Below are positions 27,802 to 52,292 of a stretch of DNA of 52,292 nucleotides, in pieces (position 1 is the stretch's first letter; every line of letters begins with the position of its first letter). Below the pieces are notes generated by a model. That model saw nothing but the letters and a program-made list of their open reading frames with translations, did no database searches and had not been told where the DNA came from. Source of the DNA: Psychroflexus sediminis (GTDB lineage Bacteria > Bacteroidota > Bacteroidia > Flavobacteriales > Flavobacteriaceae); assembly GCF_900099815.1 (NCBI RefSeq), contig NZ_FNCW01000014.1, positions 1 through 52,292 on the forward strand, read 5' to 3'. A program made the position numbers and the translations under genes.

Positions 27802-28386
27802 TCAGAAAATCCAATTGTCTATAAGGATGGGGATTGTCATTCCAAGGACGATTGAAGAAATGACAAGTACCCAATCTCTTTTGGAAAATCTGAAAATATT
27901 TTGAACAATAAACCCTAAAAGCAGAACTACAAAAACCACCAAAATTTGAGCGAGTTCTATTCCAAGGGCAAATTCTACCAGCATCAGTAAAATAGTATCA
28001 GTGCCTTTGGCAAGCATATTGAAGTAGGTCGAAAAACCAAAGCCGTGGACCAGGCCAAAGAAGAAAGTAAAAAAGTAAAGAAGAGTGGCTTTGTTTTTTC
28101 CTTTGATTTTTCCAACCGTAAAGACATTATAAACCGCCGTAACAATAATGCTTAAAGGAATTAAAAATTCAATGAGATCAGTGTTTACCCTCAGGATATT
28201 AAAAGCAGAAAGCGCCAAGGATAAAATATGACCCAATGTGAAAAGTGTCACCAGCCAAATGACCTTTTTACTCTGAGGGAAGGACAGAGATGCCACTAAA
28301 GCTGTAAGAAAAAGCACGTGATCGTATGCATTCCAGTCCAAAACATGCTCAAAACCCATTTTGAGGTACAGCCAAAAATCTTCCAT
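27802..28386 (-). CDS. HupE/UreJ-family membrane protein
   Basis: The 194-residue protein has about six membrane helices. It begins FWLYLKMGFEHVLDWNAYDHVLFLTAL and contains TLGHILSLAL and FGLVHGFGFSTYF. The conserved His/Asp residues in GFEHVLDWNAYDH and GLVHGFGF fit HupE/UreJ, thought to transport nickel or cobalt. No urease or hydrogenase gene is nearby, so the metal and its purpose are open. Confidence 0.85.
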   Translation of the reverse strand: MEDFWLYLKMGFEHVLDWNAYDHVLFLTALVASLSFPQSKKVIWLVTLFTLGHILSLALSAFNILRVNTDLIEFLIPLSIIVTAVYNVFTVGKIKGKNKATLLYFFTFFFGLVHGFGFSTYFNMLAKGTDTILLMLVEFALGIELAQILVVFVVLLLGFIVQNIFRFSKRDWVLVISSIVLGMTIPILIDNWIF

Positions 28387-28480
28387 GTGTTAAATCTTAA
28401 GTTTAGTTGATAAAATTAAATAAAAATTGCTTCTGAAATGGTTTCAGAGTATCTAATACTCAAAATAATTGAAGTATGAT

Positions 28481-28510
28481 TTCGACACGTCTGAAATTTG
28501 TTTATTTTTG
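28481..28510 (+). promoter_or_regulatory. Promoter of tRNA-Ala
   Basis: TTC (28481-28483), 19 bases, TATTTTTG (28503-28510), eight bases before the tRNA 5' end. One mismatch in the -33 element. Confidence 0.6.
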
Positions 28511-28517
28511 TAAGCTC

Positions 28518-28591
28518 GGGGGATTAGCTCAGTTGGCTAGAGCGCCACGCTGGCAGCGTGGAGGCCATCGGTTCGAATCCGATATTCTCCA
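28518..28591 (+). tRNA. tRNA-Ala (GGC anticodon)
   Basis: Acceptor GGGGGAT pairs with ATTCTCC (with G-U pairs). The D-arm is GCTC/GAGC, the anticodon stem CCACG/CGTGG with loop CTGGCAG (anticodon GGC), and the T-arm ATCGG-TTCGAAT-CCGAT. The discriminator is A28591; CCA is not encoded. The gene is intact, but pieces of its T-arm and 3' end recur downstream. Confidence 0.96.
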
Positions 28592-28599
28592 CTTTATTC

Positions 28600-28632
28600 T
28601 AAAACCACTTCTTTTAGGAGTGGTTTTTTTGA
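28600..28632 (+). terminator. Terminator after tRNA-Ala
   Basis: AAAACCACT, a short loop, AGTGGTTTTTTT. Similar copies lie at 29045 and 29424. Confidence 0.8.
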
Positions 28633-28683
28633 TTTCAAAATACGAAGTTGATTTTCCGGAAGTTTTGGTAATAGCTCATTACT

Positions 28684-28932
28684 ATGCAATATTTCACTTA
28701 CATACTAGAATCTTTAAAGGATGGCCGATTTTACATCGGCCAGTCTCAAGATTTACAAAAGAGACTTGAAGAGCACAACAAGGGGTTTTCTAGATACACT
28801 AAACCCTACAGACCCTGGAAGTTAATTTGGCAGCAAAGCTTTAACACCAGAAAAGAGGCATATCAACTTGAGCAAAAACTCAAAACTCTCAAATCCAGAG
28901 AAAGGCTAATTAAATTTATATCCAAAGGATGA
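28684..28932 (+). CDS. GIY-YIG nuclease, copy 1 (tRNA-Ala locus)
   Basis: The 82-residue single-domain GIY-YIG protein has the FTYI (4-7) and FYIG (16-19) halves of the signature, Arg27 in QKRLEEHN and the metal-binding Glu63 in QLEQKLK. It has no separate DNA-binding domain. It is preceded by the tRNA-Ala 3' end and terminator and followed at once by a T-arm fragment (28932-28941). Copy 2, 447 bases downstream, differs only at residue 43 (R to S) within the first 82 residues. A nuclease acting on tRNA genes or tRNA is inferred from position. Confidence 0.88.
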   Translation: MQYFTYILESLKDGRFYIGQSQDLQKRLEEHNKGFSRYTKPYRPWKLIWQQSFNTRKEAYQLEQKLKTLKSRERLIKFISKG

Positions 28933-29045
28933 GGCCATCGGCTCCGACATTAAAGCCTTTTTCAAAGGCTATTAATGCCGAGAGTCCACATGATTTATAG
29001 CTTCAGAGAAGCTTAAATCATGGGATTCGAATCCGATATTCTCCA
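28932..29045 (+). repeat. tRNA-Ala T-arm and 3' end fragments around an 84-base structured insert
   Basis: 28932-28941 repeats the tRNA stretch AGGCCATCGG. 29026-29045 repeats its last 20 bases (TTCGAAT...CTCCA). The 84 bases between hold two stem-loops: 28945-28980 (imperfect, CGACATTAAAGCC paired with GGCTATTAATGCCG) and 28989-29022 (CATGATTTA...TAAATCATG). Joined without the insert, the two fragments would restore the T-arm. Confidence 0.85.
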
Positions 29046-29079
29046 CAAAAACCACTTCTCTTAGGAGTGGTTTTTTTGA
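29045..29079 (+). terminator. Second copy of the tRNA-Ala terminator
   Basis: AAAACCACT/AGTGGTTTTTTT hairpin, part of the duplicated tRNA-end/terminator/nuclease unit. Confidence 0.75.
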
Positions 29080-29130
29080 TTTCAAAATACGAAGTTGACT
29101 TTCCGGAAGTTTTGGTAATAGCTCATTATT

Positions 29131-29424
29131 ATGCAATATTTCACTTACATACTAGAATCTTTAAAGGATGGCCGATTTTACATCGGCCAGTCCCAAGATT
29201 TACAAAAAAGACTTGAAGAGCACAACAAGGGGTTTTCTAGATACACTAAACCCTACAGCCCCTGGAAGTTAATTTGGCAGCAAAGCTTTAACACCAGAAA
29301 AGAGGCATATCAACTTGAGCAAAAACTCAAAACTCTCAAATCCAGAGAAAGGCTAATTAAATTTATATCTAAAGGCCATCGGCTCTCCCGATGCTTCGGG
29401 ACGATATTCTCCACTTCATTCTAA
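29131..29424 (+). CDS. GIY-YIG nuclease, copy 2 (tRNA-Ala locus)
   Basis: The 97-residue product is identical to copy 1 over the first 82 residues except S43 in place of R43. Here the stop codon is lost, and the frame reads on through the adjoining T-arm remnant, adding HRLSRCFGTIFSTSF. This tail is therefore translated tRNA-derived sequence. The nucleotide sequence is nearly identical to copy 1, so the tandem duplication is recent. Confidence 0.85.
   Translation: MQYFTYILESLKDGRFYIGQSQDLQKRLEEHNKGFSRYTKPYSPWKLIWQQSFNTRKEAYQLEQKLKTLKSRERLIKFISKGHRLSRCFGTIFSTSF
29373..29413 (+). repeat. tRNA-Ala T-arm with hairpin in place of the T-loop
   Basis: AGGCCATCGG, then CTCTCCCGATGCTTCGGGAC, then GATATTCTCCA. 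The T-stem ATCG/CGAT is preserved, while the T-loop is replaced by a TCCCGA-TGCT-TCGGGA hairpin. The same hairpin occurs in the tRNA-Cys locus at 51711-51732. Confidence 0.88.
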
Positions 29425-29452
29425 AACCACTTCTTTACGGAGTGGTTTTTTA
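29424..29452 (+). terminator. Third copy of the tRNA-Ala terminator
   Basis: AAAACCACT, loop, AGTGGTTTTTT. Slightly diverged from the other two. Confidence 0.7.
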
Positions 29453-29463
29453 TTTAAAGGAGC

Positions 29464-29478
29464 AGGCCATAGGTTCTC
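29464..29478 (+). repeat. Degenerate fourth T-arm fragment
   Basis: AGGCCATAGGTTCTC matches the T-arm AGGCCATCGG and then the GGTTCTC that opens the hairpin in the tRNA-Cys locus. It looks like a decayed end of an older copy. Confidence 0.55.
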
Positions 29479-29668
29479 ATTAAAAATCGATTTTAATTTT
29501 TTGAAATTTTGATTTTTAAAAGATTTTAGAAGACGTCAATACTTTTTTTAGGGCAGTTATCTTTAGCCATTCATTGTGGATTAAATATAGATTAATAATT
29601 TTCATAAAAATATCTAAGAAAAATAATCGCCAGGTAAAATGCTATACATTTAGTCTTCATAATACATC

Positions 29669-30784
29669 ATGAAAAGAGCTTTAGTAAGATTTAAAAATTG
29701 TGCTTTTAGAAAATTCCTTTCTCGCCATCAAAAGTATGCACCTGTCCTGTTCTTTACTGGCGGCTTTATTTTTGACACGTTCACTTTAGGCCGAATAGAT
29801 CGCACCTACGATATCGTGTTTCTCTGCCTGTATATGGCTTTATTAACGATAAGCCTTTATTTATTCAATTTAGACGATGATGGCAAGTGGGAGGGCACTT
29901 TCATCGGGCGTTATTCCAAATACTTTCCGCTGGTGATACAGTTTTTCTTTGGAGGTCTTTCAAGTGCTTTTGTCATTTATTTCTTTAGAAGTGTCTCCTT
30001 GTCAAAAACGATGGCCTTTTTCATTTTGCTACTTATTCTTTTATTTGCCAATGAATTTCTTAAAAAGAAAATATCCAATAAATACCTTCAGTTTAGTGTC
30101 TACTTTTTTATAAGCTTTACATTTTTTGCCTTTATGATCCCTGTGTTTATAAAGGAAATAAACACTGTTGTTTTTATTATTTCTGGACTCGTAAGTTTAG
30201 GAAGCACGCTGGCACTCATCGTATTCATTTACGCCTCCAGTCCAAGCACCAGAACAGAGATAAGCTTAAAAAAACTGGTAAGCCTTATCCTCTTTCTGTA
30301 TATATCTACCAATGTGTTTTACTATTTCAGGCTCATCCCGCCGGTTCCTCTTGCTATGGAAACGGGATTGGTGGCTCATGATGTCCAAATCAAGGATAAC
30401 AAATACATCCTTACCTATGAAAGTGACGACTGGTATATATTCTGGCGATCACATCAAATCGATTTTCATCGTCTTGATGATGAACCTGTGTATGTGTTTA
30501 CCTCTATTTTTGCACCTACAGATTTAAATACATCGGTTTTTCATCGGTGGAAATGGTATAATCCTGACACTGAAAACTGGGAAGTGACTGAAGATATTGG
30601 TTTTGAAGTTACTGGTGGACGTGGTCGTGGTTTTCGCGGATATACTTATAAAACCAATGTTACGGAAGGCCAATGGAAAGTTCAGGTGATCACTGAAGAA
30701 GAATTAATAATTGGTGTTGTAGATTTTGTGATTAAAAACACATCCGAATTTCCTGAGAAATCTCTGGTAGAAAAATCATTTTAA
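29669..30784 (+). CDS. DUF2914 membrane protein
   Basis: The 371-residue product has about seven membrane helices in residues 25-225. A C-terminal soluble domain follows (about 235-365), with HRWKWYNPDTENWEVTEDIGFEVTGGRGRGFRGYTYKTNVTEGQWKVQVITEEELIIGVVDFVI. This is typical of DUF2914, whose members end in a beta-sandwich with the W.W.....W and GRG.RGY motifs. Function is unknown. Confidence 0.85.
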   Translation: MKRALVRFKNCAFRKFLSRHQKYAPVLFFTGGFIFDTFTLGRIDRTYDIVFLCLYMALLTISLYLFNLDDDGKWEGTFIGRYSKYFPLVIQFFFGGLSSAFVIYFFRSVSLSKTMAFFILLLILLFANEFLKKKISNKYLQFSVYFFISFTFFAFMIPVFIKEINTVVFIISGLVSLGSTLALIVFIYASSPSTRTEISLKKLVSLILFLYISTNVFYYFRLIPPVPLAMETGLVAHDVQIKDNKYILTYESDDWYIFWRSHQIDFHRLDDEPVYVFTSIFAPTDLNTSVFHRWKWYNPDTENWEVTEDIGFEVTGGRGRGFRGYTYKTNVTEGQWKVQVITEEELIIGVVDFVIKNTSEFPEKSLVEKSF

Positions 30785-51660: not shown

Positions 51661-51740
51661 GGTGTCGTGGCCGAGTGGCTAGGCAGTGGTCTGCAAAACC
51701 ATCTACAGCGGTTCTCCCGACACTTCGGGACGCTCGACAA
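51661..51740 (+). pseudogene. tRNA-Cys with hairpin-replaced T-loop
   Basis: GGTGTCG acceptor, D-arm, and a GCA anticodon arm identical to the intact tRNA-Cys at 52153. The T-stem AGCG/CGCT is kept, but the T-loop is replaced by TTCTCCCGACACTTCGGGA, an inserted hairpin. The 3' acceptor strand is cut to CGACA, so only five of seven pairs can form. Probably non-functional as a tRNA, although the promoter is intact. Confidence 0.85.
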
Positions 51741-51774
51741 ATGTTATTTCACTACCTTTAACAATTCTTCTATT

Positions 51775-52065
51775 ATGCATTTTGTATATATTATACATTC
51801 AGAAGATGTTAATAAGTATTACGTTGGCGAAACCTCTCATGTGGAACATAGACTAGCTCTTCATAAAAATCATTATTTTAAAGGTGCATATACAAGAATG
51901 GCTAATGATTGGGAACTAGTTTTAAAATTTGAATGTAGAAATAGGTCAGAAGCATTATTTATTGAAAAGTTTATAAAGCGAATGAAAAGCACTAAGTTTA
52001 TCAAGAAAATCATTCAAACTCCAACTATTTTATCTGATATTATAGAGAAACATAGAACTGAATGA
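51775..52065 (+). CDS. GIY-YIG nuclease (tRNA-Cys locus)
   Basis: The 96-residue single-domain GIY-YIG protein has VYI (4-6), YYVG (15-18), Arg26 in EHRLALH, and the metal-binding Glu64 in LFIEKFIK. It is clearly different from the tRNA-Ala-locus copies, so the two loci were not made by a recent duplication of one another. The open frame starts upstream at 51667 inside the tRNA; the ATG at 51775 matches the domain start. It is followed by an intact tRNA-Cys. Confidence 0.86.
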   Translation: MHFVYIIHSEDVNKYYVGETSHVEHRLALHKNHYFKGAYTRMANDWELVLKFECRNRSEALFIEKFIKRMKSTKFIKKIIQTPTILSDIIEKHRTE

Positions 52066-52130
52066 AATAGTATTATTTATCATAGAGGTAATTTTTTTAT
52101 AATTACGTCTAATCATTTAAAGATTATCCT

Positions 52131-52138
52131 TAAATTTG
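52131..52138 (+). promoter_or_regulatory. -7 element of intact tRNA-Cys
   Basis: TAAATTTG, 14 bases before the tRNA, the same spacing as in the first copy. No clean TTG upstream. Confidence 0.5.
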
Positions 52139-52152
52139 CAATCTCAAAATAA

Positions 52153-52223
52153 GGTCTCGTGGCCGAGTGGCTAGGCAGTGGTCTGCAAAACCATCTACAG
52201 CGGTTCGAATCCGCTCGAGACCT
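52153..52223 (+). tRNA. tRNA-Cys (GCA anticodon)
   Basis: Acceptor GGTCTCG/CGAGACC, anticodon stem GTGGT/ACCAT with loop CTGCAAA (GCA), and a normal T-arm AGCGG-TTCGAAT-CCGCT. The discriminator is T52223. The acceptor differs from that of the first copy by the C/G change in its fourth pair. Confidence 0.95.
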
Positions 52224-52239
52224 CAAGACTAAATCTATC

Positions 52240-52271
52240 AAAGCCTGACTTTCAATGAGTTAGGCTTTTTT
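52240..52271 (+). terminator. tRNA-Cys terminator
   Basis: AAGCCTGACT, loop, AGTTAGGCTT and a T-run. Confidence 0.8.
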
Positions 52272-52292
52272 CATCTACAGCGGTTCTCCCGA
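52272..52292 (+). repeat. Third tRNA-Cys T-arm fragment at window edge
   Basis: The last 21 bases are identical to 51700-51720, i.e. the 5' half of the T-arm plus the start of the hairpin that replaces the T-loop. A further element copy probably continues beyond the window. Confidence 0.8.

Follow-up and report, generated by a model that had tools for sequence, protein, structure and literature searches.

Very small units of a GIY-YIG nuclease gene and a split tRNA copy at tRNA genes of Psychroflexus and other Bacteroidota: a probable mobile element

The question raised by this locus is how nuclease genes and broken pieces of a tRNA can accumulate behind a tRNA gene that stays intact. The DNA analysed, called here the window, is a stretch of 52,292 nucleotides from Psychroflexus sediminis (contig NZ_FNCW01000014.1). 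Of the ORFs of GIY-YIG size in the units of the window, all are the nucleases and none is an integrase or a recombinase. The tRNA-Ala region of the window is probably a tandem array of a very small site-specific mobile element.

The units of the window and their anatomy

The tRNA-Ala array (28518-29476, all features on the forward strand) begins with an intact tRNA-Ala(ggc) at 28518..28592 (ARAGORN; Rfam tRNA, 66 bits), which is read as the regenerated host gene. It is followed directly on its 3' side by a terminator-like inverted repeat (28601..28627) and further on by a first GIY-YIG nuclease gene of 82 aa (28684..28932; PF01541, E 1.6e-17). Then come a partial tRNA-Ala copy formed by the variable region and the T-stem (28931..28944; GAGGCCATCGGCTC), an 81-nt insert with two imperfect palindromes, read from the sequence, at the place of the junction hairpin (28945..29025), a second tRNA-Ala 3' end corresponding to nt 55-75 of the query (29026..29046) and a second terminator-like inverted repeat (29047..29074). 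The second nuclease gene, of 97 aa (29131..29424; Pfam GIY-YIG, E 5.5e-17), has an ORF that runs through another partial tRNA-Ala copy (29372..29385; AAGGCCATCGGCTC) and through the junction hairpin TCCCGATGCTTCGGGA (29386..29401), which replaces T-loop nucleotides and for which 0 matches are expected by chance. A third tRNA-Ala 3' end (29402..29414) leads into a third terminator-like repeat that extends to about 29450, and a decayed T-arm piece recognised by its pattern (29463..29476; CAGGCCATAGGTTC) is probably the remnant of a solo unit.

Most of this had been anticipated. The original prediction described an intact tRNA-Ala at 28518, two near-identical GIY-YIG genes 447 bases apart, repeated tRNA ends and T-arm fragments, and a third 3' end with a decayed T-arm. 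The tRNA call and both Pfam matches agree with it; the genes start at 28684 and 29131, and the 300-nt blocks holding both ORFs are 98% identical at a spacing of 447 nt. The T-arm piece GAGGCCATCGGTTC (up to 2 mismatches) occurs four times in the 52-kb window, always in the tRNA-Ala region, against 0.14 expected, and CGATATTCTCCAC (up to 1 mismatch) occurs three times against 0.05 expected. The third 3' end with its decayed T-arm resembles the nuclease-free solo units of relatives (L153). The repeated order of the parts was also right, but the palindromic DNA between T-arm piece and 3' end had been overlooked, as had the hairpin that replaces arm nucleotides (two matches to its pattern in the window, none in 100 shuffles) and the continuation of the second ORF through the tRNA piece and the hairpin to 29424.

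Besides the two tRNA-Ala units, the window contains one tRNA-Cys unit (51661-52292, forward strand), which is the mirror image of the tRNA-Ala layout: a hairpin-broken copy, a GIY-YIG gene and the intact tRNA. The broken tRNA-Cys (51661..51739) consists of nt 1-54, the hairpin TCCCGACACTTCGGGA (51715-51730) and the 3' piece CGCTCGACA; the nuclease gene encodes 96 aa (51775..52065), and the intact tRNA-Cys(gca) lies downstream of its own unit (52153..52224; ARAGORN). The contig stops within a further broken tRNA-Cys piece with hairpin, of which the start is present (52272..52292); the break in the assembly is therefore probably due to the array. On another contig of the same genome (L004), a tRNA-Met is arranged as intact gene, terminator, GIY-YIG gene and partial copy with the hairpin CCCCGATAGCTATCGGGG.

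In general, a unit measures about 0.3-0.5 kb and consists of a single-domain GIY-YIG gene with an intact tRNA of the same strand on one side and, on the other, a partial copy in which a hairpin, mostly of 15-18 nt, takes the place of a short segment in one tRNA arm. In the tRNA-Phe partial copy, for instance, nt 57-61 are replaced by YYCCGANNNNTCGGRR. The same anatomy is found at Ala, Cys, Met, Asn, Phe, Arg, Leu, Asp, Ser and other tRNAs, and it comes in two layouts. In the downstream type (Ala, Phe, Asn, Met, Asp and others) the intact tRNA is followed by a terminator, the nuclease gene and the displaced 3' part with hairpin. In the upstream type (Cys, Arg-acg/tcg and a nuclease-free Ala form) the 5' part with hairpin is followed by the nuclease gene, a leader and the intact tRNA. 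As judged by comparison of sequences, the unit sits exactly at a fixed point of one tRNA isoacceptor; the carried half completes the host tRNA, and the displaced native half is the hairpin-capped piece beyond the nuclease gene. The parts are closely packed. In our own reading, the protein C-terminus of the tRNA-Asn units is encoded by the tRNA piece and the hairpin; in the tRNA-Arg units it is read from the 22 nt with which the intact tRNA begins, and the stop codon falls on the insertion point. The hairpin-broken piece is also found as tandem copies that have no nuclease gene (L075, L086, L087, L096, L153).

The hairpin was examined in a scan for split tRNA copies, which gave 203 rows, 176 of them with a stem of at least 6. 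Such stems are present in 123 of the 147 distinct inserts, compared with 3.0 (maximum 8) in 200 letter shuffles. The position of the hairpin is set by the tRNA and the family: 56|62 in 45 of the 56 hairpin copies of Phe (these and the other copy counts include redundant loci), 45|51 or 25|36 in Asn, 51|60 in Asp, 71|75 in Leu(taa), 35|41 or 36|47 in Met and 54|58 in Val. YYCCGANNNNTCGGRR is present in 34 of the 37 Phe loci that remain when six duplicates are dropped. In the 20 distinct 16-mers, each of the 120 pair cells is a standard pair; both sides are changed in 9 cells, where shuffles give 2.6 and none of 500 reaches 9. Pairs with a double change number two, which is not unusual (109 of 500 shuffles), and further pair types, also two, lie below the shuffles (500 of 500); the four inner pairs are fixed by the search pattern, and therefore only the two outer pairs are informative.

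The listed matches to the GGTTC-hairpin number 65, and 7 of the 43 partly redundant matches from the genus have no tRNA-like flank by our own reading. The GGTTC-hairpins at L183, L191, L192, L195, L198 and L204 are bordered by sequence that is not tRNA-like, for example TTGGGCGATGCAAA or TTGTGTCAAGACAAAA after the hairpin, and possibly mark another target. Separately, a tRNA-Phe piece that ends in the anticodon loop (TAGAGCAAAGGACTGAAAAT) lies just upstream of the intact gene at L344, L352, L357 and L361 with no evident hairpin, and this piece may belong to a different element.

The nuclease is a protein of about 80-96 residues with one GIY-YIG domain. PF01541 was found in 16 of 16 members, and Y, Y, G, R, H and E are invariant (alignment A2); Tyr, Arg, His and Glu are the catalytic residues of the domain. 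The structure predicted for the tRNA-Cys protein has a pLDDT of 89.5. The nearest solved sequences are UPF0213 (1zg2, E 4e-15) and SLX1 (7cq2, E 3e-7), and Foldseek with the tRNA-Cys model gave no match below E 0.001 and a weak likeness to 1zg2 (E 0.004) and Slx1 (E 0.2). Branched DNA is what SLX1 acts on, according to the title of its structure entry, and the present nuclease could plausibly have a cruciform or a hairpin as its substrate. The nuclease is under purifying selection, with dN/dS of 0.06-0.31 in 16 of 24 chosen pairs; the other eight gave no ratio (six saturated, one with no synonymous change, one with a missing row).

Distribution in the genus and the phylum

A search for the nuclease gave matches in 30 of 40 relatives, and 99 regions around the listed genus matches were analysed. 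A tRNA of the same strand lies within 900 bp of 58 of the 127 genus matches, and at least 11 of the 127 genes carry stops in the domain. In a genus tree of 123 rows (quick method, few columns, midpoint root), a group assigned by hand and called clade I, presumably COG2827-like, has such a tRNA at 0 of 44 genes, against 58 of 83 other genes. These figures place the long-branch row L109 (tRNA-Ser) with the rest though it is drawn beside clade I; as drawn, the counts are 1 of 45 and 57 of 82. Opposite-strand tRNAs occur near two clade I genes, at 571 bp (L105) and 1136 bp (L127). The genome of the window has 26 dispersed TCCCGA-N(2-8)-TCGGGA palindromes, some of which adjoin clade I GIY-YIG genes away from tRNAs (L005, L006).

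Outside clade I, 25 rows have no tRNA call. Fifteen of these hold tRNA pieces and eight form the protein-gene clade described below; L140 has only a doubtful 15-nt tRNA match, and in L119 this search found no tRNA piece. An rRNA-linked class of GIY-YIG genes was considered for 16 loci without a nearby tRNA call and was abandoned, as Rfam gave nothing at gathering threshold; several of these loci later proved to contain tRNA fragments. Two nuclease families stand side by side at tRNA-Asn (L053, L073) and tRNA-Arg (L093). One series (L110, G013) consists of eight tandem GIY-YIG genes about 360 bp apart with tRNA-Met pieces between them. In G003 (L176) a tRNA-Ala(GGC) is broken by a T-loop hairpin and followed by a second broken piece, and no intact GGC copy was found in that genome; regeneration is therefore not absolute and can fail or be lost.

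The eight genus genes of the sister clade (L051, L059, L065, L102, L104, L133, L136, L138) lie away from tRNAs, and seven of them are in or beside conserved protein-coding motifs (23S_rRNA_IVP, epimerase, ATPase domain). At L051, L059, L136 and L138 the gene is split at SIPSN^(T)EG, and the downstream halves at L136 and L059 match PF05635. At L065 and L102 a truncated start of an epimerase gene comes before the nuclease and a full copy after it (Pfam Epimerase, GDP_Man_Dehyd), an arrangement that repeats the upstream-type layout in a protein gene. L133 splits a gene with an ATPase domain (PF13749) that is uninterrupted in the relative L080, so that both loci form a filled/empty pair. L104 stands beside palindromes, and no gene was recognised there.

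In the phylum, a profile of the T-arm clade matches 164 of 395 Bacteroidota genomes at E 1e-8, although a match alone does not amount to a tRNA unit. Many matches are in tandem, and 60 of the 99 spacings between nuclease genes less than 700 bp apart, without deduplication, fall at 350-400 bp. The loci named here are the best 79 of at least 449 confirmed candidates, and a few of the 79 come from genomes of the genus set. Among these best 79, an intact tRNA lies within 900 bp in 70 (48 Phe, 9 Asn, 6 Leu, 3 Met, 2 Cys, 1 Val and 1 Arg); it is always on the same strand (70 of 70), and in 62 cases it is no more than 70 bp away. Seven of the remaining nine, several of which are at contig ends, have a split tRNA with hairpin or tRNA pieces; L326 belongs to a long tRNA-Val array 1056 bp from the gene, and L334 is the only one of the 79 at which no tRNA or tRNA piece was found. 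Record titles among the named loci include Flavobacterium, Psychroflexus, Christiangramia, Leeuwenhoekiella, Maribacter and Aequorivita, and also Prolixibacter, Cyclobacteriaceae, Chitinophagaceae and Saprospiraceae. A Phe unit is present in Flavobacterium johnsoniae CI04 (L296).

The tRNA-Ala case is one instance of a phylum-wide pattern, and the fragments, which recur at many other tRNA loci, are not random matches. Nuclease subclades follow tRNA identity: a joint tree of 242 rows has 33 changes of this identity, compared with 104-109 in the ten shuffles listed. Carriage by phages or plasmids was also considered and rejected: a search with one Phe-type protein gave no phage match and a single weak plasmid match at 38% identity.

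Empty sites, transfer and competing explanations

If the units move, empty places can be expected in related strains, and these were found at tRNA-Ala (L152, L155, L164) and at tRNA-Phe. At the tRNA-Ala place with HupE-like sequence upstream, those three loci have one tRNA and one terminator, and solo units or upstream-type copies occupy it in L153, L156, L160 and L163, with L163/L164 and L156/L152 as occupied/empty pairs. The best pair is the nuclease-free L163/L164, a nuclease-bearing tRNA unit with flanks this close not having been found in any filled/empty pair; its flanks are about 90% identical on both sides, and the filled L163 is longer by 184 nt. The leader of the empty L164 agrees with that of the broken copy at 86 of 97 positions and with that of the intact copy at 66 of 97. 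Since it is closer to the broken copy's leader, the native tRNA-Ala was split at the T-loop and completed by a foreign leader and 5' half. For tRNA-Phe, 25 genus loci were compared: eight contain a nuclease match, which is partial in one case, and several others look empty (L341, L343, L348, L362, with neither a GIY nor a T-loop-hairpin match in about 60 nt upstream and 150 nt downstream).

Horizontal transfer is seen in the tRNA-Asn arrays of two species, G001 and G008 (L053/L073). Their first nuclease genes agree in 237 of 237 nt; over the array as a whole, identity per 100-nt block is mostly 96-100%, with one block at 90%. On the other hand, the 800 nt upstream are 78.8% identical and the downstream sides are unrelated. 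Units are patchy between species, have been transferred recently at least once, form tandem repeats and decay to solo units. In filled alleles the displaced half is broken by the hairpin and the intact tRNA keeps the presumed site.

The original prediction of a small, integrase-free element that uses the T-arm and rebuilds the tRNA is supported by the empty sites and the recurring pieces. The T-arm is not the general target, as the D-loop, anticodon arm or variable region is used in other tRNAs, and the rebuilding of a 3' end holds for many units while some rebuild the 5' half with a new leader.

It is likely that these are free-standing homing-type elements which enter a tRNA arm together with the missing half, so that the gene survives. 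In this reading each unit comprises the nuclease gene, a tRNA half with its terminator or its leader and promoter, and a short perfect hairpin at a fixed point. The GIY-YIG enzyme would break DNA either in the tRNA arm or in the hairpin once it is extruded, and recombination between the homologous tRNA sequences may then copy the unit in (homing) or add a repeat (local amplification), selection retaining only outcomes with an intact tRNA. The hairpin could be the mark of the enzyme, which either cuts there or leaves it to protect the displaced half; it may also be a remnant.

An explanation without mobility is passive tandem duplication by slippage or unequal crossing-over at tRNA genes, the GIY-YIG gene being a passenger. 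Nuclease-free tandem arrays exist (L087, L096, L153), flanking direct repeats favour unequal exchange, and tandem growth alone could be passive. However, passive duplication leaves unexplained the fixed junction with a hairpin in place, the tRNA-matched subclades, the purifying selection and the foreign leader, and we consider it unlikely.

A service to the host, with a tRNA-linked nuclease acting in defence or in tRNA gene dosage like SegB in phage T6, is improbable too. SegB is a GIY-YIG enzyme and amplifies a tRNA segment (PMC13096335), and weak similarity to PADLOC PDC-S14 is present in 7 of 16 members. Yet the arrays that were read gain broken tRNA pieces instead of complete tRNA genes, presence is patchy between species, and the sister clade breaks ordinary protein genes. 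A defence system as such was rejected, the PADLOC similarity being weak.

It is very unlikely that a Y1 (RAYT) transposase has spread the hairpins as REP-type palindromes and that they reside in tRNA pseudo-copies by chance. The genome of the window does have its 26 TCCCGA-type palindromes and two Y1_Tnp genes, but both genes are on other contigs and no such palindrome occurs within 3.2-3.3 kb around either. Besides, the hairpin keeps one fixed tRNA position. Together with tRNA flanks, the Phe form was found 12 times, in 5 of the 395 genomes, and 0 times in the control; four of those five genomes have Phe units in the loci read, and the copy of our own genome is at a contig end. Remnants of ordinary tRNA-integrated islands that lost their integrase are extremely improbable: island attachment likewise rebuilds tRNA 3' ends, but the same minimal 0.3-0.5 kb form with one nuclease recurs in many species, some units rebuild the 5' half, and we know of no att feature like the junction hairpin.

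The homing-type reading can be extended, tentatively, to an ultra-small class of autonomous element not described before, made of a GIY-YIG domain and a 15-18 nt hairpin and free of integrase, in which a cut at the hairpin would free or copy the unit and the tRNA half would both target and repair. Sister lineages would do likewise at conserved protein-coding motifs, and conserved essential sequences might then be a safe home because the element always brings a spare half. If this is right, the units are among the smallest autonomous mobile elements proposed in bacteria, life inside an essential single-copy gene is solved without an integrase, and the solution is common, given the 164 of 395 sampled Bacteroidota genomes that match the T-arm-clade profile. 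The units also account for puzzling partial tRNAs and for assemblies that break off at tRNA genes. Their enzymes form a natural set with one tRNA arm for each, and allow direct tests of how the target is chosen, what the hairpin does and how the gene is regenerated.

Relation to known systems

No description of tRNA-linked units of nuclease and hairpin was found in the open PMC library, and such units may be in print elsewhere, in subscription journals or preprints. Integrase-borne islands target a tRNA and restore it. The present units differ from them in having no integrase, a far smaller size, a hairpin junction and both 5' and 3' versions. UPF0213 and SLX1 are the nearest in solved sequence and fold, and to our knowledge they are not parts of mobile units. 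I-TevI, the GIY-YIG endonuclease of a group I intron, shares the catalytic domain (PDB 1mk0, E 0.0043; Foldseek 1ln0, E 0.3). Unlike in the endonucleases of group I introns, there is no intron here, the gene is not spliced out and the tRNA is rebuilt; a group I intron was rejected for the window, where Rfam gives only tRNA above threshold in 28300-29800 and the nuclease gene lies outside the intact tRNA.

REP/RAYT systems also have short palindromes beside a nuclease gene and nuclease-free copies (PMC3116915, PMC2817692, PMC3733652). Their nuclease has the Y1 fold, whereas here a GIY-YIG nuclease is combined with a fixed tRNA site and a carried tRNA half. SegB, a free-standing phage GIY-YIG homing endonuclease, is comparable in its place near tRNA genes and in the tandem amplification of a tRNA segment, which has been proposed to proceed through a short homology that the 5' region of the tRNA shares with the 3' region of segB (PMC13096335). 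It differs in being a phage gene without isotype preference in that study; the protein described here is chromosomal and single-domain, with one tRNA target per subclade, a split tRNA copy, a hairpin and no phage match.

Together with SegB, the closest parallel is that of the mORFs (mobile endonuclease ORFs) of fungal mitochondria, known from atp6, atp9, cox2 and nad3 of Glomus and from atp6 of Allomyces (PMC3630166). There, a foreign end of the host gene comes in with a free-standing endonuclease ORF, which in Glomus atp9 is of the GIY-YIG kind; the resulting hybrid gene is functional, and the native end is pushed to the far side of the ORF. The layout of the present units matches this in that the ORF comes with a gene end that takes the place of the native one. 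No description of mORF-like elements in bacteria was found in the literature searched. The differences are that here bacterial chromosomes and tRNA genes are involved, that the units measure 0.3-0.5 kb, and that they have a junction hairpin, tandem arrays and replacement of the 5' half. Set against these systems, what is new is the junction hairpin, the tRNA targets in bacterial chromosomes, the 5' version and the small size.
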